Source of the DNA: Ancylobacter polymorphus
GTDB taxonomy: Bacteria; Pseudomonadota; Alphaproteobacteria; Rhizobiales; Xanthobacteraceae
Reading direction: 5' to 3'
Length of the DNA stretch: 64,000 nucleotides
Assembly (NCBI RefSeq): GCF_030813495.1
Contig: NZ_JAUSUI010000002.1
Location: 558,001-622,000 of the forward strand
The position numbers were made by a program, and so were the translations under genes. The notes below the pieces were generated by a model. It was not told where the DNA came from, did not search any database, and saw nothing but the letters and a program-made list of their open reading frames with translations. Below, piece by piece: positions 10,624 through 38,967 of this stretch (positions are counted from its first letter, which is position 1; every line of letters begins with the position of its first letter).

Positions 10624-10731
10624 GGATCAAGCACTTGGCCGCGCCGGTCGCGCGGGCGCCGGGCCGATGTCTCTCATTTCGGTGCAGACCAGCCATGCGC
10701 GAGCCTGGGAACTCAAGCTTTTTCCGCCGGT

Positions 10732-11310
10732 TTGGAGGAAAGGCGCGGCCGTTCCCTTTCGCCATGCCGAGCGGGCGTCACGCTCTGGCGCGAGGGCGCG
10801 CAGGCGGCGCTCGCCGCTCGGCCGGCGGCGCTCAAGACCGTCATCCGCCTCTCCGCGGAACAGGAGAAGCCCTGGCCGCCGGTGGGGGCGGCGATCCGGC
10901 ACGCGGCGAAGAACGCCGCCGGTCGCGCGGCGGACCGTGCGGAAGCGGAGCCGGCTCAGGATTTCCTCGACGTGCCGGAGCGCCTCGCCTTGGCGCAGGC
11001 GGCGCGTGTCGTCGAATTCAATTCCGTCATCGCGGCGCTGAAGCCGCGGGTCGCGACGCTGAGCGTGGCGCAGAAGCACCGCATCCCCGCCTTTCTCGAC
11101 ATGACCGAACGCGAGGGGCGCCCGCAGCCGACGCTGGAACGGTGGATGTTCGCGCCCGAGCGGGAACAGCGGCGCGAAGGCGCGCGGCCCGGCGGCAATT
11201 CGCGTCCGCCGGGCCGGCGAATATTGACCACACGTCGCCATTCGCTAGAATTGCCGCCATCGGGTGCCGCCCCCGCAAGGGCGGCACGTTTCGTTTTGGG
11301 CGGGCGCTGA
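10732..11310 (+). pseudogene. Decayed Spy/CpxP (LTXXQ-motif) family protein lacking a signal peptide
   Basis: The frame encodes AARPAALKTVIRLSAEQEKPW, then a run of Ala/Arg-rich helix, DVPERLALAQ, and IAALKPRVATLSVAQKHRIPAF. This is the pattern of rhizobial periplasmic Spy-like proteins, whose two L-T/S-x-x-Q motifs here read LSAEQ and LSVAQ. Family members start with a signal peptide, but the frame upstream (open from 10588) contains none, and neither do the other frames there. The only starts are weak (TTG at 10732). I read it as a gene whose N-terminus has been lost or frameshifted; an unusual cytoplasmic version cannot be excluded. Confidence 0.45.
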
Positions 11311-27597: not shown

Positions 27598-28191
27598 TCA
27601 GTTGGTCGTGGTGGTGGCGGCGCCGGTGCTCGGAGTTTCCGAACGGGCCTGTTCCAGGCTCTTGAATTCGGGAGCCGCATTCAGCTCTTCCTTGGTCATC
27701 GAGACCACGACCTTCTCGCCATCGTCGGTGGGCGTGGCGGTCAGCGAGTCGAAGGACACCGCGACCGGCTTGGCGCCGATGCCGAGGAATCCGCCGACAT
27801 CGATCACCACGGCGATGATCTCGCCTTCGCGCTCGACGATCACGTCGCTGATCGAGCCGAGCTTCTCGTCATTGGCGGTCACCACCTCGGTGCCCATCAG
27901 GTCGGAGCCGAGCCACTGGCCCGCGCTCTGGGCGCTGACGAATTTCGGCGTCGCCGGAGTCGCGGTCGCCGAGGCAGCCGGAGCGGCGCTGTCGGTCGAG
28001 CCGGCCGTGCCGGGCGTCGGGGTGGTCGCCGGCATTTCGGAGGCCGGGGCCTGCGGGTTGCCGGCATCCGGCTGAACCGGGCTGGCGGCCGGCGGCGTCG
28101 TGGTCTCAGGCGCCGGGCTCTGGGCGAAGGCGACCGCGGGGGCGAGCGCCAGGGCAGCGGCGGCGGTGAGTGTCGCAAGCTTGCTGGTCAT
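27598..28191 (-). CDS. Exported PRC-barrel domain protein, general stress regulon member
   Basis: A signal peptide (MTSKLATLTAAAALALAPAV, cleavage after AFAQ) is followed by a ~75-residue Pro/Ala/Thr-rich linker and a PRC-barrel domain (GSDLMGTEVVTANDEKLGSI, IAVVIDVGGFLGIG). PRC-barrels bind partners in RNA processing or photosynthetic complexes, but exported forms of this kind are common in rhizobia and have no settled role. ATG at 28191 has GGAGAAG before it; the open frame reaches 28290. An exact EcfG promoter at 28253-28277 lies about 62 bases upstream, so it is probably induced in general stress. 197 residues. Confidence 0.88.
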   Translation of the reverse strand: MTSKLATLTAAAALALAPAVAFAQSPAPETTTPPAASPVQPDAGNPQAPASEMPATTPTPGTAGSTDSAAPAASATATPATPKFVSAQSAGQWLGSDLMGTEVVTANDEKLGSISDVIVEREGEIIAVVIDVGGFLGIGAKPVAVSFDSLTATPTDDGEKVVVSMTKEELNAAPEFKSLEQARSETPSTGAATTTTN

Positions 28192-28252: not shown

Positions 28253-28277
28253 AACGGAATAGAACCGGATGAGTTCC
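28253..28277 (-). promoter_or_regulatory. EcfG-type promoter (GGAAC-N16-CGTT) of the PRC-barrel gene
   Basis: Minus strand GGAAC (28277-28273) and CGTT (28256-28253) with 16 bases between, an exact match to the alphaproteobacterial general stress promoter. The gene start is 62 bases away. Confidence 0.8.
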
Positions 28278-28322
28278 CCAACGTAGTCACTTTTTGGGAG
28301 GTGGTATTTATTTACAAAAATC

Positions 28323-28754
28323 TCAGCTTCGACCGATCATCGAAGCGTCGGCGACGCAAATCGTCAATTCTTCGGTCGATAGACTTGATTTCGTCACACC
28401 CAACGCAGAAAGGCAGCCTTTGGGCGTACGGGTGGCGCGGCTGGGTGCGAGCGGGGCGGGTTCCGGCTGGCTGTTAACGATGACAGGTGCGGGAGCCGCA
28501 GCGGGGGCGGAGGCGGCCGGGATCGGCTTGCGGGCCGTATCGAGACGCGCACCCTTGCCGGCACGATTGACGAGGTGCGCCTGCCGGGCCCCAATCTCCG
28601 GCCCGAAGGCGTCGATGGCGATGGCCTGCGGCGCGGCGCGGGTGAGCGAGCCGGTGGCCAGGGCGCCGGCGGTGAGCGGCACCATGAAGGCAACGCCGGT
28701 GACGGCGCCGAGAAGGTAGGCGGACCCCTTGAAGACGCTGTCGATGCCCTTCAT
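28323..28754 (-). CDS. Conserved-looking small protein with one membrane segment or signal, unknown function
   Basis: 143-residue protein: a hydrophobic N-terminal segment (AYLLGAVTGVAFMVPLTAGALA, split here only by description), a low-complexity Ala/Pro middle, and a distinct C-terminal block RTPKGCLSALGVTKSS followed by TICVADASMIG with two Cys. ATG at 28754 follows GGAAGGGGAAG; an immediately upstream GTG is in frame. An exact EcfG promoter at 28895-28920 suggests general stress control. The C-terminal codons are less GC-rich than the neighbours. I do not recognise the family; the two Cys could form a disulfide outside the membrane (inference). Confidence 0.65.
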   Translation of the reverse strand: MKGIDSVFKGSAYLLGAVTGVAFMVPLTAGALATGSLTRAAPQAIAIDAFGPEIGARQAHLVNRAGKGARLDTARKPIPAASAPAAAPAPVIVNSQPEPAPLAPSRATRTPKGCLSALGVTKSSLSTEELTICVADASMIGRS

Positions 28755-28802
28755 CACTGCTTCCCCTTCCGTCCGGACCTGCGGGCATGCATGTGCGGTC
28801 GC

Positions 28803-28821
28803 GCGACGTGGAGCACGTCGC
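28803..28821. repeat. Inverted repeat in the leader of the unknown stress gene
   Basis: GCGACGT (28803-28809) and ACGTCGC (28815-28821) form a perfect 7-bp stem around GGAGC. It lies between the EcfG promoter and the start codon at 28754, so it would be transcribed as part of a ~130-base leader. No T-run follows. Confidence 0.35.
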
Positions 28822-28894
28822 CGCCGGAGCTTTTCCGCAGACGATGGTTTCGATGAATTGGTCCGGCGAAGGCGGTCGCCGTGATCGCAGGGTT

Positions 28895-28920
28895 AACGCG
28901 CGTAAACCGTAACGCGTTCC
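28895..28920 (-). promoter_or_regulatory. EcfG-type promoter (GGAAC-N17-CGTT) of the unknown stress gene
   Basis: Minus strand GGAAC (28920-28916) and CGTT (28898-28895) with a 17-base spacer, an exact match to the core bases. It lies 141 bases upstream of the start at 28754 and just outside the convergent-free end of the histidine kinase gene. Confidence 0.7.
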
Positions 28921-28984
28921 CGCGTGCGATCACGTTTTCGCGCGCGGCCCATGCGGTGGGAGAAGGAGAGAACGCCCGGCGCGG

Positions 28985-30304
28985 TCAGCGCTCGGGCGTC
29001 AAATGGCTCTCGGGCACGCTCACCGTGCAGATGAGGCCGGAGGGGGCGAAGTCGAGCTCCACCTTGCCGTCGAGCGCGCGGGCGAGGTTGCGCTCGATCA
29101 CCAGCGAGCCGAAGCCGCGTCCTTCCGGCTTGGAGACGACAGGCCCGCCGCGCTCGTGCCAGGAAAGCTCGAAGCCGCCGCCGGCCTCCGGTGTGCGCCG
29201 GGTCCAGATGATGTCGACATGGCCGGTCGGCACGGACAGCGCGCCATATTTGGCGGCGTTGGTCGACAGTTCATGAATGGCGAGGCCGATATTCTGCGCC
29301 GCTTCCGGCTTGAGGAACAGGTTCGGGCCCTTGATGGTGAACTGGCTGTTCTCGCGGTCGAGATGATGGCCGAGCTGCGAGCGCACCATGTCGTTCAGCG
29401 AGGCGCCGTACCAGCTCTCCTGCACCAGCAGATCATGCGACTTCGACAGGGCCTGCAGCCGGGCGCTGAAAATCTCGACGAAATTGTCGATCGAGCCGGC
29501 ATGGCGGGCGGTCTGGCGGGCCATGGCCTGGATCACCGCCAGCAGATTCTTCGAGCGGTGGGTGAGCTCGCGCATGAGAAGGCGCAGATGCTGCTCATTC
29601 TCCTTGCGCTCGGTGACATCGACGGCGGCGCCGGTGAGGCCCACCGTGGTGCCGGCGAGATCGCGCAGCGGGTCGATATGGATGTCGTACCAGTATTTGC
29701 GGCCGGCCTCCTCGATCTCGATCTCGCCCTTGCGCGAGGCGGAGGAGGCGAGCGCGTCGCGCTTGAGCAGGGTCAGCGCCTGCGCCTGCGCCTCGCCGAG
29801 CAGGTCGGCATCGCTGGAACCGAGCACCTGTTCCACGGGAAAACCGAACAGCGGCTTGCTGACCGAGGTGTAGCGGAGCTCGCGGTCCTGGGTGAAGATC
29901 GCGACATTGGAGCCGCGCAGCGCCATCTCATAGCGCTGCAGGGCGGTCGCGAGTTCCAGCGTCAGCCGTCGCTGCTCGCTCACCGCGTGGCGCGGGGTCG
30001 GCATGTCGATCAGCGCGGCGAAGTTCGACCACAGGGCGACCGCGCCGATCAGGTTGAGCAGGGCGATGCCGATGCGCACGCCCATCGGCAGCAAGGGAAA
30101 GGTGCTGCCGAAATCGAAGATCACCAGCAGTGAGAGCACGCCGAAAAGCAGCACCAGGGTCGCTAGAAGCAGGCCCAGGAGCCGTGTACGGATCGACAGG
30201 TTGCGGCGCAGGAACAGGAGCCGCACCAGAGCCACGAAAATGGCCAGCGACGACAGGACCGTGATCCAGCGCGCCGCGTTGTCGACAAGGGCAATGTCGG
30301 GCAT
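28985..30304 (-). CDS. PAS-containing membrane histidine kinase of the HWE/HisKA_2 type
   Basis: Sensor kinase probably acting on PhyR. Three hydrophobic helices (about 13-32, 42-63, 73-97) form a membrane unit without a large periplasmic domain. A PAS domain (about 125-235) follows, then the phosphoacceptor block MRELTHRSKNLLAVIQAM with His at about 249, and an ATPase domain with IHELSTNAAKYGAL and GRGFGSLVIERN. The HRxKN box is typical of HWE/HisKA_2 kinases, which phosphorylate PhyR. The gene follows phyR by only 10 bases on the same strand, so it is in its operon. 439 residues. Stimulus unknown. Confidence 0.9.
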   Translation of the reverse strand: MPDIALVDNAARWITVLSSLAIFVALVRLLFLRRNLSIRTRLLGLLLATLVLLFGVLSLLVIFDFGSTFPLLPMGVRIGIALLNLIGAVALWSNFAALIDMPTPRHAVSEQRRLTLELATALQRYEMALRGSNVAIFTQDRELRYTSVSKPLFGFPVEQVLGSSDADLLGEAQAQALTLLKRDALASSASRKGEIEIEEAGRKYWYDIHIDPLRDLAGTTVGLTGAAVDVTERKENEQHLRLLMRELTHRSKNLLAVIQAMARQTARHAGSIDNFVEIFSARLQALSKSHDLLVQESWYGASLNDMVRSQLGHHLDRENSQFTIKGPNLFLKPEAAQNIGLAIHELSTNAAKYGALSVPTGHVDIIWTRRTPEAGGGFELSWHERGGPVVSKPEGRGFGSLVIERNLARALDGKVELDFAPSGLICTVSVPESHLTPER

Positions 30305-30314
30305 TTAGGGGTGC

Positions 30315-31118
30315 TCAGGCGCTGGCACGCTGCTCCCGCGGACGGGCGCGTCGTTCGAAGAACAGCGCCTGGCTGATGACGGCGGCGACGGTCGAGGGCT
30401 GGAAGGGCTTGGCGATCAGGAACGCCGGCTCGGGGCGGACACCGGTGAGGAAGCGTTCGGGATAGGCGGTGATGAAGATCACCGGCACCTCGGTCTTCTC
30501 GATCAGCTCGTTGACCGCATCGAGGCCGGAGGAGCCGTCCGCCAGCTGGATGTCGGCGAGGATGAGGCCGGGCGCCTTGCGGCGGGCGAGGTCCACCGCC
30601 TCGGTATGGGTGCGGGCGATGCCGGTGACGCGATGGCCGAGGCCTTCCACCAGACCTTCCAGATCGAGCGCGATGAAGGGCTCGTCCTCGATAATCAGCA
30701 CATCGGTGGCGATTTCCGCCGCCAGTTCGCGCCCGGCATCGGCGACCAGATTGCGCAGCGTGGGAACGTCGATGGAGAGGATGCTCGCGGCTTCCTCTTC
30801 GGTGAAGCCCTCCAGCGACACCAGCAGGAACGCCTGGCGCACCACCGGGGTGATGTGGCCGAGCCGCCGCTCGCCCTGCAGCGGGGCGGACGGGGCATCG
30901 ACCTGGGCGTTCAGCGTCACGGAGTCCCACAGCCGCGTGAGCAGGGTGTAGAGCGCCACACGGGGATCGATCGAGCGGTCGAGCGTCGAGGGATCGGCGA
31001 TGAGCGTCTCCAGCATGGCCGTAACATAGGCGTCGCCGGCCGACTGGCTGCCACTGAGCGCGCGCGCATAGCGGCGCAGAAAGGGCAGGTGCTGCGCGAC
31101 AAGTTGAGAAGTGCTCAC
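30315..31118 (-). CDS. phyR: General stress response anti-anti-sigma factor PhyR
   Basis: Response regulator that, when phosphorylated, binds NepR and frees sigma EcfG. The N-terminal half (about 1-130) is a sigma-factor mimic with sigma2-like and sigma4-like parts (VRQAFLLVSLEGFTEEEAASIL). The C-terminal half is a receiver with phospho-Asp at about 189 (LILADIQLADGSSG) and FITAYPERF plus KPF. 267 residues is exactly the family size. An exact EcfG promoter lies 40 bases upstream, closing a positive loop. It is divergent from nepR-ecfG, the usual arrangement. Confidence 0.96.
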   Translation of the reverse strand: MSTSQLVAQHLPFLRRYARALSGSQSAGDAYVTAMLETLIADPSTLDRSIDPRVALYTLLTRLWDSVTLNAQVDAPSAPLQGERRLGHITPVVRQAFLLVSLEGFTEEEAASILSIDVPTLRNLVADAGRELAAEIATDVLIIEDEPFIALDLEGLVEGLGHRVTGIARTHTEAVDLARRKAPGLILADIQLADGSSGLDAVNELIEKTEVPVIFITAYPERFLTGVRPEPAFLIAKPFQPSTVAAVISQALFFERRARPREQRASA

Positions 31119-31157
31119 TCGCGTCTCCCCGAAGCTGCAAATTGTGAAGCGGCTGAT

Positions 31158-31182
31158 AACGCGCGACGGACCGCGTGGTTCC
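31158..31182 (-). promoter_or_regulatory. EcfG-type promoter of phyR
   Basis: Minus strand GGAAC (31182-31178) and CGTT (31161-31158), 16-base spacer, exact core match, 40 bases before the phyR start. Confidence 0.85.
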
Positions 31183-31221
31183 GGAGTAGGTCAAAAATTT
31201 TCACGATGCACTAGAATTCCC

Positions 31222-31246
31222 GGAACCGTTTCGCTTCTGGCTCGTT
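31222..31246 (+). promoter_or_regulatory. EcfG-type promoter of nepR-ecfG
   Basis: GGAAC at 31222-31226 and CGTT at 31243-31246, 16-base spacer, exact core match, 56 bases before the nepR start. With the phyR promoter it makes a divergent autoregulated pair. Confidence 0.87.
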
Positions 31247-31301
31247 GTGGCCTCGTATGCAGCGACGGAGCCGTCTTCCCTCTCGACCTTTCGGGGGCTC
31301 A

Positions 31302-31556
31302 ATGTCGGGAAAGAAAATGATGAGTGACGATCATTCCGAGGGTGCGGCCGCTGCGGCGGACGGCATGTCCTCCTCGCCTATGGGCGGCGGCAAGGAAACC
31401 GCGCTCGGCAGCGAGATACAGGCCAAGATCGGCCAGCACCTGCGCGCCATGTATGACGACGTGGTGCGCCAGGGCGTGCCCGATCGATTCATGGACCTGC
31501 TGTCCAAACTCGATAAAGCGGACACGCCGTCCGGCGAGGGTGGGGGGCGCAAGTGA
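31302..31556 (+). CDS. nepR: Anti-sigma factor NepR
   Basis: Small anti-sigma factor that sequesters EcfG until phosphorylated PhyR binds it. The core IQAKIGQHLRAMYDDVVRQGVPDRFMDLLSKL (in two helices) is the NepR signature; residues at both ends are disordered. ATG at 31302 gives 84 residues; ATGs at 31317 and 31320 are alternatives. The stop overlaps the ecfG start (GTGA), so the anti-sigma and sigma factor are translationally coupled. Confidence 0.93.
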   Translation: MSGKKMMSDDHSEGAAAAADGMSSSPMGGGKETALGSEIQAKIGQHLRAMYDDVVRQGVPDRFMDLLSKLDKADTPSGEGGGRK

Positions 31557-32104
31557 GCCGGTTCGACCCGACTTTGCGCGACGAGATCATCGCCGCCATC
31601 CCCAATCTGCGGGCCTTCGCCATCTCGCTGTCGGGTAGCGTCGACCGGGCGGACGATCTGGTGCAGGAAACGCTGCTGCGTGCCTTCGCCAATATTTCGA
31701 GCTTCCGGCCCGGCACTAATCTGCCGGCCTGGCTGTTCACCATCCTGCGCAATCTGTTCCGCTCCGAGTACCGCAAGCGGCGGCGGGAAGTGCCGGATTC
31801 GGACGGCGCCTTCGCCGCGACGCTGACCAGCAATCCCGACCAGAACACCCATCTGGATTTCGAGGATTTCCGCGCCGCGCTCGACCAGTTGCCGCCCGAC
31901 CAGCGCGAAGCGCTCGTCCTGGTTGGCGCCTCCGGCTTTTCCTATGAGGAAGCCGCCGATATCTGCCAATGCGCGGTCGGCACCATCAAGAGCCGGGTGA
32001 ACCGGGCGCGCAAGCGGCTCGGCGAGATGCTGGCACTGGACGATGTCAGCGATTTCGGTCCCGACAAGACCACGCGCGCCGTGCTCGCCGCCGAGCGCAC
32101 CTAA
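31553..32104 (+). CDS. ecfG: General stress response sigma factor EcfG
   Basis: ECF sigma factor of the alphaproteobacterial general stress response. Sigma2 region: DDLVQETLLRAFANISSFRPG, about 30-55; sigma4 region: LDQLPPDQREALVLVGASGFSYEEAA and VGTIKSRVNRARKRL, about 105-160. 183 residues. GTG start at 31553 overlaps nepR. The divergent phyR, its own EcfG promoter and four further matching promoters in this window support the assignment. Confidence 0.95.
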   Translation: MSRFDPTLRDEIIAAIPNLRAFAISLSGSVDRADDLVQETLLRAFANISSFRPGTNLPAWLFTILRNLFRSEYRKRRREVPDSDGAFAATLTSNPDQNTHLDFEDFRAALDQLPPDQREALVLVGASGFSYEEAADICQCAVGTIKSRVNRARKRLGEMLALDDVSDFGPDKTTRAVLAAERT

Positions 32105-32191
32105 CGTCCCGCGCCCCGGCCCTTTGCCGGCCAGCTGAGGCGCACATTCATTCTCTCCCAGATACCGCGCCTCGACCTCGCCCTCACGCGA

Positions 32192-32228
32192 GAACGCCCC
32201 CGGCTTGCGTCGGGGGCGTTCTTTGCTT
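32192..32228 (+). terminator. Intrinsic terminator after ecfG
   Basis: GAACGCCCCCG (32192-32202) and CGGGGGCGTTC (32211-32221) form an 11-bp perfect stem, followed by TTTGCTTT. It is about 90 bases after the ecfG stop and 25 bases from the end of the convergent DUF1328 gene. Confidence 0.85.
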
Positions 32229-32245
32229 TAGCGCCGGAAGCGGGA

Positions 32246-32419
32246 TCAGGGCGCCCGGCCACGGCGCATGAAGCCAAACACCGCCGACACCAGAAACAGG
32301 ATGATGGCGACGAAGAAGATGATCTTGGCAATTTCTATGGCGGTTCCGGCGATGCCGCCGAAGCCGAGAACGGCGGCGATCAGAGCCACCACGAGAAAGG
32401 TCAGCGCCCAACCCAGCAT
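32246..32419 (-). CDS. DUF1328 small membrane protein (YtjA-like)
   Basis: 57 residues, almost entirely two membrane helices: [21 protein letters not shown] and [20 protein letters not shown], then a short RRGRAP tail. This matches the DUF1328/YtjA family of unknown function. ATG at 32419 has GGAGG upstream. A near-consensus EcfG promoter (32463-32487) precedes it, consistent with its place beside the general stress genes. Confidence 0.88.
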
Positions 32420-32462
32420 GTAAGCCTCCACGTACGATACGGCCTTGGCCGCGTGGCGGGAC

Positions 32463-32487
32463 AACAATTGAGGCGGCTCAGGGTTCC
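32463..32487 (-). promoter_or_regulatory. Near-consensus EcfG promoter of the DUF1328 gene
   Basis: Minus strand GGAAC (32487-32483), 16 bases, then TGTT (32466-32463) in place of CGTT. One mismatch in the -10, hence lower confidence. Confidence 0.55.
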
Positions 32488-32598
32488 TTGGGCTGAGAGG
32501 GGCGCAGGCGCGGATGTGAGACCTCCCCACAGCCCGCCGCTTGCCGTGCCATCAGATGAAGGTAAAATATTCCCCACCGGCAGGATCGGGAGCGACGG

Positions 32599-33405
32599 AT
32601 GAGTCTTCGGGCACGGTTAAGGCCTTTCGTGCCGGCGGCTCTCGTCCCCGTGCTGCGGAGCGTCAGGGACGCGATCTATCCGCCTCGCACCCGCTATCAT
32701 TTCTCCTATGACGATGCCGGCGAGGTGAGCGAAGATATCTCGCGCAAATACGCCTACTCAGGCGACATGCTGACCTGCTTCGCCGGAAACGAGTTCGGTA
32801 TCGTCAGCAAATGGCACCATTACATACCGCTCTATGATCGCTACTTCGCGCCGTTTCGCGCTGCGCCGGTGAGATTTCTGGAAATAGGAGTCGGTAAGGG
32901 CGGCAGTCTTCAGATGTGGCGGACATATTTCGGGGCCGATGCCGTCATCTATGGAATCGACATCGACCCGAGCTGCCTCGCTTATGATGGTGTCGCCGGC
33001 CAGGTCCGCATCGGCTCGCAGGACGATGTCGCCTTCCTGAACCGGGTCGTCGATGAGATGGGCGGCGTGGATATCGTGCTGGACGATGGCAGCCACCAGA
33101 TGAAGCATCTGCCCGTGACTCTGGAGGCGCTTTTCGGCCGTCTGCACCCCGGCGGGATCTATGTGATCGAAGATCTGCACACCGCCTATTGGCGTGACTA
33201 TGGGGGCGGGTATCGCGGCCGGCGCAATTTCTTCCGCTATGTCGGCGAGGTCATCGCCGACATGCACCGCTGGTATCACCGTCACAGCCTCCGGCATCCG
33301 TCGGTGAGTGAAGGCTGCAGCGGCATTCATGTGCACGATTCGATGGTGATTTTCGAGAAGGGGCCGGTTTTTCCGCCGGTCATGTCGCGGGTGGGGCGCT
33401 CCTGA
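32599..33405 (+). CDS. Class I SAM-dependent methyltransferase (MycE-like), substrate unknown
   Basis: 268 residues. The SAM site is VRFLEIGVGKGGSLQMWR with the acidic GIDIDP after the next strand, then QDDVAFLNRVV, DIVLDDGSHQMKHL and LHPGGIYVIEDLHTAYW. The last block (DDGSH ... EDLHT) is typical of a family near MycE-type sugar O-methyltransferases, often found in polysaccharide loci, but no polysaccharide gene is adjacent here. The coding sequence is visibly less GC-rich than its neighbours (runs such as TATCATTTCTCCTATGACG), which suggests more recent acquisition. ATG at 32599. Confidence 0.8.
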   Translation: MSLRARLRPFVPAALVPVLRSVRDAIYPPRTRYHFSYDDAGEVSEDISRKYAYSGDMLTCFAGNEFGIVSKWHHYIPLYDRYFAPFRAAPVRFLEIGVGKGGSLQMWRTYFGADAVIYGIDIDPSCLAYDGVAGQVRIGSQDDVAFLNRVVDEMGGVDIVLDDGSHQMKHLPVTLEALFGRLHPGGIYVIEDLHTAYWRDYGGGYRGRRNFFRYVGEVIADMHRWYHRHSLRHPSVSEGCSGIHVHDSMVIFEKGPVFPPVMSRVGRS

Positions 33406-33431
33406 GCGTCGCCCCGCCCGGTACGTGCGGC

Positions 33432-34331
33432 TCAGATCCGCGTCGCCAGCGAGGGGGCGACGGCGCGGGCTTCCGCCAGCAGGGCGGTGACGATCGGCGT
33501 CATCGGCTCGCGGTCGAGCACGACGAGGCCCATCTGGTGCAGAACTTCCGGCCCCTGGATCGGGATGGAGCGGATGCTGGGGGGAAAGGCGAACACATCC
33601 GCCAAAGTGTTGGCCACCACGCTCGCCCATTTGCCAGTGCGCACATGCGAGAGCAGAGCGAGGGTCGAATTGGCCTCCAGCATCGGCACCACCGCATGCC
33701 CGGCCTCGGCGAGCTGCTTGTCGACGATGCGGCGGTTCTGCATGTCGGGGGTCAGCAGGCACAGCGGCACCCGGCCGATTTCCTCCCAGGTCACCTTAGG
33801 TTTGTCGCCGAGCGGCGAGTCGGCCGAGGTGAGGAAGCGGTAGCCTTCCTTGTAGAGCGGCACGGTCTGCACCCGCCCGAGCGGGTCGTTGTCGAGATAG
33901 GTGATGCCGGCATCGGCCTCCAGATTCTCGATCAGCCGCAGCACCTCGTTGGAAGACGCGGAAATCAGCGTGAAGCGCACATCGGCGTGCTTGGCGTGGA
34001 ACGGCGTGGTGAGCTCGGAGAGCATCGGCATGGCGGTGGGAATGGCGGCGATGCGCAGATGGCCGGAAAGCCCCTTGCGCATGCCGGCGATTTCCTGGCG
34101 CATGGCGCGCACATCGCCGATGACCCGCCGCGCCCATTGCAGCGCGCGCTCCCCTTCCGGGGTGAAGCCGATGAAGCGCGAGCCGCGCTCCACCAGCCGG
34201 ACGCCGAGCTGTTCCTCCAGCTGCTTGAGGCCGGCCGAGAGCGTGGGCTGGGTCACCCCGCAGGATTCGGCGGCACGGCCGAAATGGCGCTCCTTGGCGA
34301 GGGCGAGCAGAAGTTCGAAACGGTCGATCAC
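33432..34331 (-). CDS. LysR-family transcriptional regulator
   Basis: The N-terminal winged helix FELLLALAKERHFGRAAESCGVTQPTLS is canonical, then the LysR linker helix and a periplasmic-binding-like effector domain to residue 299. The frame can be extended to TTG at 34373, but this would place the ATAG-N7-CTAT palindrome (34355-34371) inside the coding sequence. I therefore prefer GTG at 34331, preceded by AGGAA. Neighbours give no clear target: rmuC lies upstream on the same strand. The ligand is unknown. Confidence 0.88.
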   Translation of the reverse strand: MIDRFELLLALAKERHFGRAAESCGVTQPTLSAGLKQLEEQLGVRLVERGSRFIGFTPEGERALQWARRVIGDVRAMRQEIAGMRKGLSGHLRIAAIPTAMPMLSELTTPFHAKHADVRFTLISASSNEVLRLIENLEADAGITYLDNDPLGRVQTVPLYKEGYRFLTSADSPLGDKPKVTWEEIGRVPLCLLTPDMQNRRIVDKQLAEAGHAVVPMLEANSTLALLSHVRTGKWASVVANTLADVFAFPPSIRSIPIQGPEVLHQMGLVVLDREPMTPIVTALLAEARAVAPSLATRI

Positions 34332-34354
34332 GCGGGACGTTTCCTGACACAGAC

Positions 34355-34371
34355 GATAGAAACATTCTATC
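34355..34371. promoter_or_regulatory. LysR-type palindromic operator (ATAG-N7-CTAT)
   Basis: GATAGA (34355-34360), AACAT, TCTATC (34366-34371): a perfect inverted repeat of the T-N11-A kind bound by LysR proteins, with the ATAG-N7-CTAT spacing known from OxyR-like sites. It lies 24 bases before the GTG start of the LysR gene, where autoregulation is expected. ACTATC recurs at 34374-34379. Confidence 0.6.
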
Positions 34372-34438
34372 AAACTATCAGAAAAGCTTCATCCTGCGAA
34401 TTGGACAGATTAAAGACCGCCGCGCCCACCGTCACCCC

Positions 34439-35647
34439 TCATTCGGCCGCCCCGCGCAGCGGCGGGGTGGGCAGCGTATCCGCAGCGAAGAGATCAGGCG
34501 GCGCGGAGGTGCGCGCCGGGCCGTCGGCCTCGAACTCCAGTTGCTCGATGCGCGCGCCGCGCCTGGCGATCTTGTCGGCGGAAGTCAGCGCCTGCGCCAC
34601 GTCGTCGGTCATCTGGCCGAAGTGCTTTTGCAGATTGCCGACACGGTCGCGCAGGCGGATCACGTCGGCGACCAGCTTGCCGCATTCGGTGCGGATGAGG
34701 TCGGCCTGCTCGCGCATGCGCGCATCCTTGCAGATGGCCTGCACCACCTGCACGGCGAGCATCAGCAGCGAGGGCGAGACGAGGATCACGCGGGCGCGGA
34801 ACGCCTGCTGGATGAGATCGTCGAAATGTTCGTGCAACTCGCCATAGACGGATTCGGAGGGCACGAACATCAGCGCCACGTCCTGCGTTTCGCCGCCGAC
34901 GAGGTAGCGCTCGGCAATGTCCTTCACATGCCGGCCGACATCGGCCTTCAGCCGCGCTTCCGCCGGCTTGCGCGCTTCCGGCGTCGGCGCCTCGCGAAAG
35001 GCGGTGATCGATTCCAGCGGAAATTTGGAATCGACCAGCAGCGGGCGCGTGTCGCCGGGCAGGAAGATGGCGCAGTCGGCGCGGCGTCCATTGCTCAGCG
35101 TGTGCTGGAAGGCGAAGCTGTCGCGCGGCAGGGCGTCGGCGATGATGGCCTGCAGCCGCCCCTCGCCGAAGGCGCCGCGCGCCTGCTTGTTGGCCAGCGT
35201 CTCGCGCAGGCTCATCACCTGGCCGGAGAGTTCGCCCAGGCTCGCCCGCGCCTGGTCGACAAGGGCGAGGCGCTCATTGAGCCGCACGAGATTTTCGTGC
35301 GTGGCTTCGCTCGCCCGCGCCAGACTTTCGCCCATGCGGTGGGAGGAGGCGTCGAGCCGCTCGGCCACGGCACGGGCGAGATCGCCCTGGCGCTGGGCCA
35401 GCACCTCCGTCATCGACTGCACCCGCCCGATGGTTTCCGCCTGGGTGCGGGCGAGATCGGCGAGGCGTTCTTCCAGTTCGTCCGCGCGGCGGGCCTGCTC
35501 GTCCGCCTCAAGCGCGTTCTGCCGGGCGCTGCGCGAAACCGCGCGCAGAACGGCGACGAGCAGCAGAAAGGCGAGCGCGCCAGCGCCCGCGAGCGTCTGC
35601 GCCAGCGTCACCGGCTGGGTGCCGAGCGTGAACACGATCTGATCCAT
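34439..35647 (-). CDS. rmuC: DNA recombination protein RmuC
   Basis: Family of PD-(D/E)XK-related proteins thought to limit DNA inversions and repair damage. One membrane helix (about 16-37), a long coiled coil (about 45-165), and the RmuC domain (about 175-370) with [41 protein letters not shown] and [15 protein letters not shown]. 402 residues. Divergent from def-fmt, as is usual in Rhizobiales. Confidence 0.9.
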
Positions 35648-35757
35648 CGCCGTCTTCTAGCAGATTCTGGCGTTGGCGCGAACGGAGAGTGAACATCCGT
35701 CGCGGGCAGGGTAAACCCCGCGTTGACGGAATTCGGCGCGGCGCTTATCTGAACGGC

Positions 35758-36309
35758 ATGTCGATACGTCCGCTCGTGATCCTCCCCGATACCCGCCTGC
35801 GCCAGCTCTCCGACCCCGTGCTGCGCGTGGATGCGCGCGTGCGCGCGATCGTCGAGGACATGTTCGAGACCATGTATGACGCCCCCGGCATCGGGCTGGC
35901 GGCGATCCAGGTCGGCATTCCCGAGCGCATCGTCACCGTCGATGTCGGCCCGCGCCAGGCGCAGGCGGACGGGGCGGAGGACGAGGAAGCCGAGCGCGAG
36001 AAGCACCCGCTGGCGCTGATCAACCCGGAGATCATTGCCTCCTCCGAGGAGATGTCGGTCTATGCCGAGGGCTGTCTGTCGATCCCGGAATATTACGCCG
36101 ATGTCGAGCGCCCGGCGCGGGTGAAGGTCCGCTATATGGACCTCAATGGCGAGACGCAGGAAATGGACGCCGACGGGCTGCTCGCCACCTGCGTTCAGCA
36201 TGAGATCGACCATCTCAACGGCGTTCTGTTCATCGATCACATCTCCAAGCTCAAGCGCGACCGGGTGATCACCAAGTTCACCAAGCTGGCGAAGAAAGAG
36301 CGGGCCTGA
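35758..36309 (+). CDS. def: Peptide deformylase
   Basis: Removes the formyl group from nascent proteins. All three motifs are present: [10 protein letters not shown] (44-53), [10 protein letters not shown] with metal Cys at 106, and QHEIDHLNG with metal His148/152 and catalytic Glu149. ATG at 35758 gives 183 residues; the frame is open to 35689. An acidic insert (about 72-81, [10 protein letters not shown]) lies between motifs one and two. Upstream of fmt, its functional partner. Confidence 0.95.
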
Positions 36310-36358
36310 CCCCGCCGCGCAGGCGACGCTTCGTTTCCACCTTTCAGCGGAGAGCCGC

Positions 36359-37276
36359 ATGCGCATCGTCTTCATGGGCACGCCCGATTTCGCGGTTTCC
36401 ACGCTGGTGGAGATCGTCGGCGCCGGCCACGAGGTGGTGGCGGCCTATACGCGCGCGCCGGCGCCGGGCGGGCGGCGCGGGCTCGATCTCGTGCCCTCGC
36501 CGGTGCACCGCGCGGCGGAACGGCTCGGCATTCCCGTGCTGACGCCGTCTACCCTGCGCACCGAGGAGGCGGCCGCGACCTTCGCCGCGCATGAGGCCGA
36601 CGCCGCCGTGGTGGTGGCCTATGGGCGCATTCTCCCGCAGGCGATCCTCGATCTTCCTCCGCTCGGCTGTCTCAATCTCCACGCCTCGCTGCTGCCGCGC
36701 TGGCGCGGCGCGGCGCCGATCCAGCGGGCCATCATGGCCGGCGATAGCGAGACCGGCGTCGCGGTCATGAAGATGGAAGCGGGGCTCGATACCGGGCCGG
36801 TGGGGCTGGTGGAGCGCGTCGCCATCGGGCCGGACATGACGGCAGGCGAGCTGCACGACCGGCTGATGATCGTCGGCGGCGACCTGATGGCGCGGGCGCT
36901 GGCGGCGCTGGAGCGCGGCGCGCTCGGCTTCACGCCTCAGCCCGAAGACGGCGTGACCTATGCCGCCAAGATCGACAAGAACGAGACCCGCATCGACTGG
37001 ACCCGGCCGGCGGCGGCGGTGCACGACCATATTCGCGGCCTCTCGCCCTTTCCCGGCGCCTGGTTCGAGCTCGACGGCGCGCGGGTAAAAGTGCTGCGCT
37101 CGACGCGGGGCGCGGGTTCCGGCGCCCCCGGTTTGGTGCTGGACGGCGCGCTCACCATCGCCTGCGGAGAGGGCGCGGTACGGCTCATCGAGGTGCAGAA
37201 GGCCGGCAGCCGGGCGATGCCGGCGGATGAGTTTTTGCGCGGCAGCGACCTGACCGCGGGCAGGGTGGTGACATGA
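36359..37276 (+). CDS. fmt: Methionyl-tRNA formyltransferase
   Basis: Formylates initiator Met-tRNA using 10-formyl-[16 protein letters not shown] begins the Rossmann-like catalytic domain, [20 protein letters not shown] is the signature loop, and [13 protein letters not shown] starts the C-terminal OB domain. 305 residues. It follows def by 49 bases and overlaps the GNAT gene by four bases. In many relatives truA follows, but here a GNAT gene takes that place. Confidence 0.96.
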
Positions 37277-37722
37277 CGGACATACGCGCTCTCACGGCCG
37301 GGGATCACGCGCTCTGGCTGCCGCTCTGGCAGGCCTATCTCGTCTTTTACGAGGCGACGCTGCCGGACGAGGTGACGGCGACGACCTGGCAGCGCCTGCT
37401 CGATCCGGCCGAGCCGGTGCATGGCGCGCTGGCCTTCGATGCTGGCGGGCAGGCGGTCGGGCTGGTGCACTGGCTGTTCCACCGCTCCACCTGGTCGGTG
37501 GGCGATGTGTGCTACCTCAACGATCTTTATGTGGACGCCAGCCAGCGCGGGCAGGGCCTCGGCCGCCGGCTGATCGACCATGTCGCGGCGGACGCGGCGG
37601 CGAAGGGCAGCGCCGAACTCTATTGGCTGACCCATGAGACCAACCACACGGCGCAGCGGCTTTACAACGCCGTCGCCGAGCGCGCCGGCTTCATTCAGTA
37701 CCGCAAGCCGCTCACGGTCTGA
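37273..37722 (+). CDS. GNAT-family N-acetyltransferase
   Basis: 149 residues with the GNAT fold: strand [30 protein letters not shown] carries the acetyl-CoA loop R-G-Q-G-L-G, and [28 protein letters not shown] is the C-terminal motif B. ATGA overlap with fmt means coupled translation. The substrate is unknown; similar proteins act on small amines or protein N-termini. Confidence 0.9.
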
Positions 37723-37745
37723 GGACGTACCCCTTCGAACCCGTC

Positions 37746-37826
37746 ATCCCGGACAGCCGCAAGGCCGATCCGGGATCGCGTGACAGCGGCGGACGATCCC
37801 GGCTGCCGCTTCGCTGCGGCCGGGAT
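37746..37826. repeat. Two adjacent ATCCCGG/CCGGGAT hairpins between convergent genes
   Basis: ATCCCGG at 37746-37752 pairs with CCGGGAT at 37770-37776, and a second pair lies at 37796-37802 and 37820-37826. Inside the second, GCCGC-TTCG-CTGCGGC extends the stem. GTCATCCCGG-type palindromes are dispersed intergenic repeats in alphaproteobacteria. Here they occupy the gap between GNAT and peroxiredoxin and could end both transcripts. Confidence 0.65.
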
Positions 37827-37854
37827 GGCGCATTGGGGCGAGACGAGAGCGCTC

Positions 37855-38490
37855 TCACTTGCCCGGCTGCGGCACCATGCGCAGATAAGGCTTCAGCGTC
37901 TTCCAGCCGCCGGGAAACTTCTCCTTCGCCGCCTCGTCGCTGACCGAGGGGACGATGATCACATCCTCGCCGTCCTTCCAGTTGGCCGGGGTGGCGACAG
38001 CGTGCTGCGCGGTGAGCTGGAGCGAGTCGATTACCCGCAGGATCTCGTCGAAATTGCGCCCGGCGCTGGCGGGGTAGGTGAGGGAGAGCTTCAGCTTCTT
38101 GTCCGGCCCGACGACAAACACCGAGCGCACGGTCATCGTGTCCGAGGCGTTGGGGTGGATCATGTCGTAAAGGCCGGAGACGGTGCGCTCCGGGTCGGCG
38201 ATCAGCGGGAAGTTCGGGGCGTAGCCCTGTGTCTCCGCAATGTCCTCCGCCCATTTCGCATGCGCGTCGAGCGGATCGACGGAGAGGCCGATCACCTTGA
38301 CGTTGCGCCGGTCGAATTCCGGCTTCAGCCGTGCCACCTGACCGAGTTCGGTGGTGCAGACCGGGGTGAAGTTCTTCGGGTGCGAGAACAGCACCCCCCA
38401 GGAATCGCCCAGCCATTCATGGAAGCGGATCGGGCCTTCGGTGGTCTCGGCATCGAAATCGGGAACGATGTCCCCGAGGCGGATGGTCAT
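37855..38490 (-). CDS. 1-Cys peroxiredoxin (Prx6-type)
   Basis: Thiol peroxidase of the AhpC/TSA superfamily. The peroxidatic Cys is at about residue 45 in HPKNFTPVCTTELG, and Arg in the LIADPERTVSGLYDM region completes the site. The long C-terminal domain and PANWKDGEDVIIVPSVSDEAAKEKFP are characteristic of the Prx6 group. 211 residues. A run of T/A (about 38500-38525) upstream suggests its promoter. No obvious peroxide regulator is adjacent. Confidence 0.92.
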   Translation of the reverse strand: MTIRLGDIVPDFDAETTEGPIRFHEWLGDSWGVLFSHPKNFTPVCTTELGQVARLKPEFDRRNVKVIGLSVDPLDAHAKWAEDIAETQGYAPNFPLIADPERTVSGLYDMIHPNASDTMTVRSVFVVGPDKKLKLSLTYPASAGRNFDEILRVIDSLQLTAQHAVATPANWKDGEDVIIVPSVSDEAAKEKFPGGWKTLKPYLRMVPQPGK

Positions 38491-38581
38491 GGCGAACTCC
38501 CGTCAAAAAATCTAGTGTTTTTGTAGCATACTCCGCGCGGCGGCGGGTGCAAGCCGCATCCTACCCTGCGACCGTGACAGT

Positions 38582-38606
38582 GGAACCTCAGGGCGAACCG
38601 CACGTT
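38582..38606 (+). promoter_or_regulatory. EcfG-type promoter of the glycine-zipper lipoprotein gene
   Basis: GGAAC at 38582-38586 and CGTT at 38603-38606 with a 16-base spacer, exact core match, 104 bases before the start at 38710 and 6 kb away from the ecfG locus. Confidence 0.75.
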
Positions 38607-38709: not shown

Positions 38710-38967
38710 ATGCTCAAGATCGTTGTGCTTTCGCTGGCCACGCTCAGCATCGCCGCCTGCACCACCACGGAACGCCGCGCCACGGGCGGCGCGCTCATTG
38801 GCGGCGGCACCGGCGCGGTCATCGGCGGCATCGCCGGCGGCGGCACGGGCGCGGCGATCGGCGCGGGCGTGGGCGCGGGTACGGGCGCGCTGATCGGCGC
38901 GGCCACCTCGCCGGGCGACTGCTGGGCCTATGACCGCTATGGCCGCCGCGTGGCGGTGCGCTGCTGA
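38710..38967 (+). CDS. Glycine-zipper outer-membrane lipoprotein
   Basis: 85 residues. A signal ending in the lipobox LSIAAC (lipidated Cys17), then a glycine zipper: GALIGGGTGAVIGGIAGGG and repeated GxxxG turns to about residue 65. The C-terminal YDRYGRRVAVRC has two Cys with DCW before it. Similar to YMGG/OmpA-like-zipper lipoproteins that are often stress-induced. AAGGAGAGG precedes the ATG at 38710. Exact EcfG promoter upstream. Confidence 0.85.
   Translation: MLKIVVLSLATLSIAACTTTERRATGGALIGGGTGAVIGGIAGGGTGAAIGAGVGAGTGALIGAATSPGDCWAYDRYGRRVAVRC

Follow-up and report, generated by a model that had tools for sequence, protein, structure and literature searches.

A probable PhyR-NepR-EcfG general stress response locus in Ancylobacter polymorphus, with conserved EcfG-type promoters and an unnamed family of small proteins

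We analysed a 64,000-nucleotide (nt) stretch of the Ancylobacter polymorphus genome (contig NZ_JAUSUI010000002.1, positions 558,001 to 622,000; the window), in which the genes of the regulator PhyR, the anti-sigma factor NepR and the extracytoplasmic function (ECF) sigma factor EcfG lie together. This region is very probably the central locus of the general stress response of Alphaproteobacteria, and its sequence predicts six promoters read by EcfG. A PhyR-NepR-EcfG regulon, as an earlier note on this DNA had proposed, therefore follows from the sites themselves, from their conservation and from the genome-wide site set. We regard the finding as true and well supported; its kind is known, and it includes one protein family that has no name. 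The promoter sites and the genes of the switch are the following.

31158..31182, minus strand: EcfG-type promoter of phyR, exact GGAAC-N16-CGTT, 39 nt before the GTG start codon
31222..31246, plus strand: EcfG-type promoter of nepR-ecfG, exact N16-CGTT, divergent from the phyR promoter
28253..28277, minus strand: EcfG-type promoter of the PRC-barrel gene, exact N16-CGTT, 61 nt before ATG
28895..28920, minus strand: EcfG-type promoter of the small protein gene, exact N17-CGTT, 140 nt before ATG
32463..32487, minus strand: variant EcfG-type promoter of the DUF1328 gene, N16 with TGTT, 43 nt before ATG
38582..38606, plus strand: EcfG-type promoter of the glycine-zipper gene, exact N16-CGTT, 103 nt before ATG
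30315..31118, minus strand: phyR, anti-anti-sigma factor with sigma-like and receiver domains (PF22029, PF22233, PF00072)
28985..30304, minus strand: PAS-HWE histidine kinase gene (PF07536), 10 nt behind phyR
31302..31556, plus strand: nepR, anti-sigma factor (PF18557, E 1.6e-17), start at ATG 31302 or 31317
31553..32104, plus strand: ecfG, ECF sigma factor with Sigma70 r2 and r4_2 (Pfam)

The proteins of the switch resemble solved structures. PhyR matches the PhyR-type regulator 5uxw (E 2.1e-85), NepR the chain 3t0y_B (E 4e-4) and EcfG the chain 5uxx (E 1.2e-55); the identity of EcfG rests on regions 2 and 4 together with the 5uxx match, not on a model of the ECF15 class. The PAS-HWE kinase matches the blue-light-activated histidine kinase 6ph4 (E 7.2e-44), which we take to be Brucella LovHK, and its gene is presumably co-transcribed with phyR. 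A search of the host genome with EcfG returned one close copy and six weaker matches, the best at 36% identity, and the idea of a second EcfG was dropped, as this search gave no other close copy. The EcfG-type regulon is thereby upheld: phyR with its PhyR domains, nepR adjoining ecfG, sigma regions 2 and 4, the HWE kinase gene, a single close EcfG and six conserved promoters are all found, and Pfam bears out the gene names given earlier (PRC-barrel, PhyR, NepR, ECF sigma, DUF1328, Gly-zipper).

In the window, for which a self-trained caller gave 59 genes and 90.5% coding sequence, exact GGAAC-N16/17-CGTT occurs five times (four N16, one N17) and no more. All five sites of the earlier note were recovered at their places, as was the intergenic TGTT variant before the DUF1328 gene. 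The note had described the exact matches as upstream of genes and had left coding regions uncounted; with these counted, all five still lie outside called genes, and each of the six sites is followed, at a distance of 39-140 nt, by a start codon on its own strand. Its estimate of about one chance match in 64 kb was too high, since dinucleotide shuffles (n=100) gave 0.25 (N16) plus 0.20 (N17), or 0.45. Four N16 matches were reached in 0/100 shuffles. The lone N17 match is not significant by itself, at least one being present in 19/100. A further intergenic match, GGAAC-N16-GGTT at 10708-10732 (plus strand), was absent from the earlier list; it lies 149 nt before an open reading frame (ORF) of 142 amino acids (10882-11310) that has no Pfam match, and may be either a seventh site or a chance match.

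Given nine fixed bases only, and the frequency of the N17 match in shuffles, one could read the matches as chance occurrences in intergenic DNA. We give this next to no credence and reject it on the conservation footprint: all six sites are kept in place across 18-19 relatives, while the neighbouring genes are near zero. The relatives are 19 loci (L001-L019), out of 80 PhyR loci, that retain the gene order around phyR; the sequence of L016 is incomplete, and no peroxiredoxin gene was located in L004 or L010. The nearest PhyR relatives are Ancylobacter. L019 comes from a record named Bosea sp. 117 that has the Ancylobacter gene order and may be misnamed. We scanned the 350 nt preceding each gene for exact matches or matches with at most one mismatch, with the reversed motif as control. 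With one mismatch allowed, the promoter was present in 19/19 relatives at phyR, nepR, the PRC-barrel gene and the small protein gene, and in 18/18 at the DUF1328 gene; exact matches numbered 17, 12, 15 and 12 of 19 and, as CGTT, 10 of 18, respectively. At the glycine-zipper gene it was exact in 18/18. The same motif preceded the neighbouring genes in 0/19 (kinase), 0/18 (LysR), 1/16 (peroxiredoxin), 0/18 (S24) and 0/19 (glnD) loci, and shuffled upstream sequences gave 1.25-1.70 loci per gene with up to one mismatch and 0-0.15 exact. The spacers have diverged among relatives while both promoter elements persist.

The pattern extends to the 61 more distant phyR loci, where homologues were taken as best tblastn matches, NGTT was allowed and the scan covered the forward motif only. 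NGTT sites preceded phyR in 55/61, nepR in 60/61, the DUF1328 gene in 23/25, the PRC-barrel gene in 12/12 and the kinase gene in 1/35 (exact CGTT: 46/61, 30/61, 19/25, 11/12 and 1/35).

The earlier note had also asked for a genome scan. Exact sites number 80 in the host genome, where the reversed pattern gives 35; all 80 were classified, a site counting as upstream when intergenic and within 350 nt of a start codon. Outside called genes lie 56 of them, and 50 are also upstream; random places in the stretches analysed are upstream in 6.5% of cases. The caller undercounts the genes behind sites, because six intergenic sites have no called start and at least four of these precede short ORFs, as seen by eye. 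In A. radicis there are 76 sites against 46 reversed, 55 outside called genes and 45 intergenic-upstream. For 29 of the 50 intergenic-upstream host sites, a homologue stands behind an exact site in that species (five of the 29 at less than 50 bits). Across the genus, the motif exceeds the control in 29/30 genomes.

Several observations weigh against reading the region as such an EcfG locus. Judged by the reversed pattern, about 35 of the 80 host sites are expected anyway; 24 lie inside called genes, 21 of the 50 intergenic-upstream sites lack an exact-site counterpart in A. radicis, and one genus genome (G418) has fewer motifs than controls (91 vs 109). Pfam was searched at E 0.001 with 40 of the 45 target proteins encoded elsewhere than in the window, and 15 of the 40 had no family. 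Among the relatives, the four closest to the window (L001-L004) carry N16 and CATT at the small-protein promoter, and the reversed motif, with at most one mismatch, occurs before the same six genes in 0-4 loci (maximum 4/19, at phyR). Moreover, other ECF sigma factors with similar promoters exist, and the six weaker EcfG matches of the host genome are presumably other sigma factors. The promoters could then be real and yet some be read mainly by another ECF sigma factor with an overlapping motif, like RpoE6 (ECF26) of Sinorhizobium meliloti, 27 of whose 40 target genes are reported to be RpoE2 targets as well. We consider this improbable: the switch genes phyR and nepR-ecfG have sites of their own, the published EcfG motif is GGAAC with a GTT -10 element, and the host genome search gave no second close EcfG. 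EcfG thus stays the preferred reader of the six promoters.

The mechanism that we infer is the known one. Under stress, histidine kinases would phosphorylate PhyR, the PAS-HWE kinase encoded beside phyR being probably among them; phosphorylated PhyR would bind NepR and so free EcfG (partner switching), and EcfG would start transcription at the six GGAAC-N16/17-(C/T)GTT promoters. Through the two promoters at the switch, phyR-kinase and nepR-ecfG would be under positive feedback; the other four would serve genes of probable envelope proteins, namely the PRC-barrel, small CX18C, DUF1328 and glycine-zipper proteins. The response characterized in Methylobacterium, Caulobacter, Sinorhizobium (RpoE2) and Sphingomonas has the same three proteins and the same kind of promoter at phyR, at nepR-ecfG and at stress genes. 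The divergent layout of phyR and nepR-ecfG is also that of the known systems. No core difference was seen; here an HWE kinase gene lies 10 nt behind phyR, and one of the host sites precedes the gene of a phytochrome-HWE kinase. For the Ancylobacter general stress response, our literature search gave a single match, unrelated by its title.

Three of the genes behind window sites belong to named families.

27598..28191, minus strand: PRC-barrel protein gene (PF05239), with an N-terminal signal-like stretch seen by eye
32246..32419, minus strand: gene of a DUF1328 small membrane protein of 57 amino acids (PF07043)
38710..38967, plus strand: gene of a glycine-zipper protein of 85 amino acids (PF13441), with a lipobox seen by eye

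The PRC-barrel protein is apparently exported, to judge from its N-terminus. The earlier note had presented the function-less genes as new regulon candidates, which is less well supported; the small protein gene belongs to a nameless family. The EcfG and sigma-S stress systems are unrelated. A published Salmonella list places the DUF1328 protein YtjA under sigma-S. In both cases a small protein of this family is tied to a general stress sigma factor, by an EcfG-type promoter here and by sigma-S in Salmonella. No paper treating EcfG together with DUF1328 was found in the literature searched. Published EcfG/RpoE2 regulons already contain PRC-barrel genes, both in Sphingomonas melonis and in S. 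meliloti; in the latter, the PRC-barrel protein SMb20522 depends on RpoE2, and the same paper describes most RpoE2-dependent genes as having no predicted function (PMC6180224).

Outside the window, the named targets include Ku, DJ-1/PfpI, trehalose-phosphatase, an alpha-amylase family enzyme, Cu/Zn superoxide dismutase, two DUF892 proteins, two AI-2E proteins, BrkB, an iron permease, a transglycosylase-associated protein, a second DUF1328 protein, a DUF1236 glycine-zipper protein, the phytochrome-HWE kinase, a sigma-70-type factor that is RpoH-like by eye, and others; a CsbD-like protein scored below the Pfam cut-off. PRC-barrel, Ku and trehalose genes are likewise among the S. melonis targets. 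The kinase combines a phytochrome (PAS_2-GAF-PHY) with an HWE kinase (L116 11810-13599) and lies behind the exact site C4 383505-383529 of the host genome; its homologue in A. radicis (L194) is likewise behind an exact site. This light sensor may act on the stress switch and also be controlled by it. No paper in the literature searched joins EcfG and a bacteriophytochrome. Behind one site lies, by eye, a strongly hydrophobic ORF of only about 22 codons (L098 near 1972, minus; L152 near 2050, plus), and similar DNA lies behind a site in A. radicis. Other sites stand before short ORFs that the caller missed (L116 1970, L112 1968 and L124 1961, all minus), one of which resembles a second PRC-barrel protein by eye.

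On the evidence of its sequences, the new part of the finding is an unnamed protein family, mostly linked to phyR or its kinase and often behind an EcfG-type promoter, to which the small protein gene of the window belongs.

28323..28754, minus strand: small protein gene, 143 amino acids, unnamed phyR-linked family
28542..28568, minus strand: motif 1, [ND]RxxKxxRL, residues 63-71, NRAGKGARL
28356..28415, minus strand: CX18C tail, Cys114 to Cys133

The reading frame at 28323-28754 is a genuine gene, because base differences concentrate on third codon positions, which take 60-67 of the 100-108 differences to the four closest relatives. The window protein has no Pfam match at E 0.01 and no NCBIfam model above cut-off, and the same was true of the small carriers of the family that were searched (Pfam 0/5, L033, L046, L061 and L209 among them; NCBIfam 0/3). 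The protein evolves fast; K67, R70, L71, C114 and C133 are invariant in 34 aligned sequences. Members share a hydrophobic N-terminal segment, [ND]RxxKxxRL, a linker and CX18C, and are encoded close to phyR at loci of Pseudolabrys, Rhodoplanes and others. The cysteine spacing is 18 in 18/19 members (19 in one) and in all 19 rows of alignment A1, which holds the Ancylobacter-type sequences. They are apparently exported, and we infer that the small protein is periplasmic and that its cysteines form a disulfide. AlphaFold2 on the 34 sequences gave a mean predicted local distance difference test (pLDDT) of 61, with a helix at 5-40 and two three-residue strands at both cysteines; a fold search was ruled out because this model is too weak. 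As far as our literature searches reach, the family is unreported, papers on 'KGDRL' being unrelated by title.

How widespread is the family? A regular expression for the motif found 54 six-frame places in 2.2 Mb, in which some loci overlap and 19 loci came from the A1 search; six reordered controls found 3-6 places each. Two frames of L063 that carry the motif were set aside as chance matches, having neither promoter nor CX18C. A1 matches 17/397 genomes of the order, mostly weakly, motif 1 being the common part, and alignment A2 matches 107/149 genomes of the bacterial family through small proteins or through SleB, a hydrolase family considered below. L013, whose start is unclear, was left out of A1-A3, and L037, L046, L051 and L052, which have a long linker, out of A3. 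The small protein is present in 29 of the 51 genomes counted; no plasmid-borne copy turned up in the plasmid collection searched. The link with the stress locus appears in a search blind to gene position: 25 of the 30 best loci, some identical to A2 rows, have a homologue of phyR (13), of the HWE kinase only (11) or of nepR only (1) within 1.5 kb. A looser search of 49 more distant phyR loci with at least 3.5 kb behind phyR detected a member at 21 of them but not at the other 28.

GGAAC-N15-18-NGTT lies upstream of 18/19 phyR-near members. In the set of 30 loci L216-L245, 18 of the 26 readable members have an NGTT promoter, 14 of them exact, against 0/26 for the reversed control. It is lacking at L218, L219, L229, L234, L236, L241, L243 and L220, of which L218, L234, L241 and L243 are near phyR; the start of L220 is probably set too far upstream, and L239, one of the four non-readable loci, has the promoter under a looser filter.

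Motif 1 also occurs in SleB-type cell wall hydrolases (PF07486, Hydrolase_2) of the Xanthobacteraceae. A2, which contains no SleB, matches long frames through the motif columns: among the listed long-frame matches (at least 350 codons) in genomes searched for SleB, 12/13 are SleB genes, and the thirteenth spans the CX18C tail. SleB was found in 57/61 genomes searched. Of the 67 SleB matches listed, 30 gave loci and 29 frames were read (L248, with no frame, was left out of the SleB loci); the strict motif is in 10, two of which look identical, and absent from 19, and each of five reordered controls gave 0/29. In the host SleB, outside the window (C2:504886-505218), a hydrophobic segment precedes NRARKADRL. 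A4, a 30-column motif profile of 10 SleB and 16 small-protein segments, was run on 51 genomes. At E <= 0.001 it gave 35 matches, 27 SleB and eight small proteins and no other, of which 9/27 and 4/8 match by construction because their segments are within A4; at 0.02 it gave 30 SleB, 16 small proteins and one other, many weaker matches up to 0.5 being left unclassified. These classes were set by coordinates, with a small-protein list hand-picked from A2 matches, one of whose entries, G448, matches with no tail. The two carriers differ in that the small protein has no Hydrolase_2 domain (Pfam; window protein, L033, L046, L061 and L209), whereas the SleB frames have no EcfG-type promoter (GGAAC-N16/17-NGTT upstream in 0/29 read). 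Motif 1 (TVNRSAKQDRL) is also found in a protein (L212 295-1917, minus) whose GDSL-lipase match falls just short of the Pfam cut-off, possibly a third class of carrier.

The sharing of motif 1 may be explained in two ways. The motif may have spread without a common partner, the small gene deriving from the N-terminal part of SleB or the basic motif binding cell wall or lipid, and we give this an even chance. Indeed, in the SleB (by eye) and small proteins examined the motif lies behind an N-terminal hydrophobic stretch, and anionic polymers are conceivable ligands of a short basic motif. Against this explanation, though not decisively, the motif residues R, K, R and L do not vary in the motif alignment despite diverged flanks, and motif-bearing SleB tends to co-occur with the small protein, which is found in 24/30 genomes with such a SleB vs 5/21 others (Fisher p 1.3e-4 over all 51 genomes and 1.3e-3 over the 47 in which SleB is present, phylogeny ignored). 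Alternatively, and only tentatively, these sequence patterns would fit a docking peptide for a periplasmic partner common to SleB and the small protein. An equally speculative extension is that the stress-made small protein competes for or recruits the partner of SleB, in which case EcfG could steer wall cutting through a decoy or adaptor closed by the CX18C disulfide.

Altogether, the regulon itself is ordinary and of a known kind, and yields a footprint-tested list of EcfG sites for Ancylobacter. The phyR-linked family matters more than the regulon, as it allows one predicted stress target to be linked to a named enzyme class. The role of the small protein is directly testable, because the conserved peptide connects this target with SleB.

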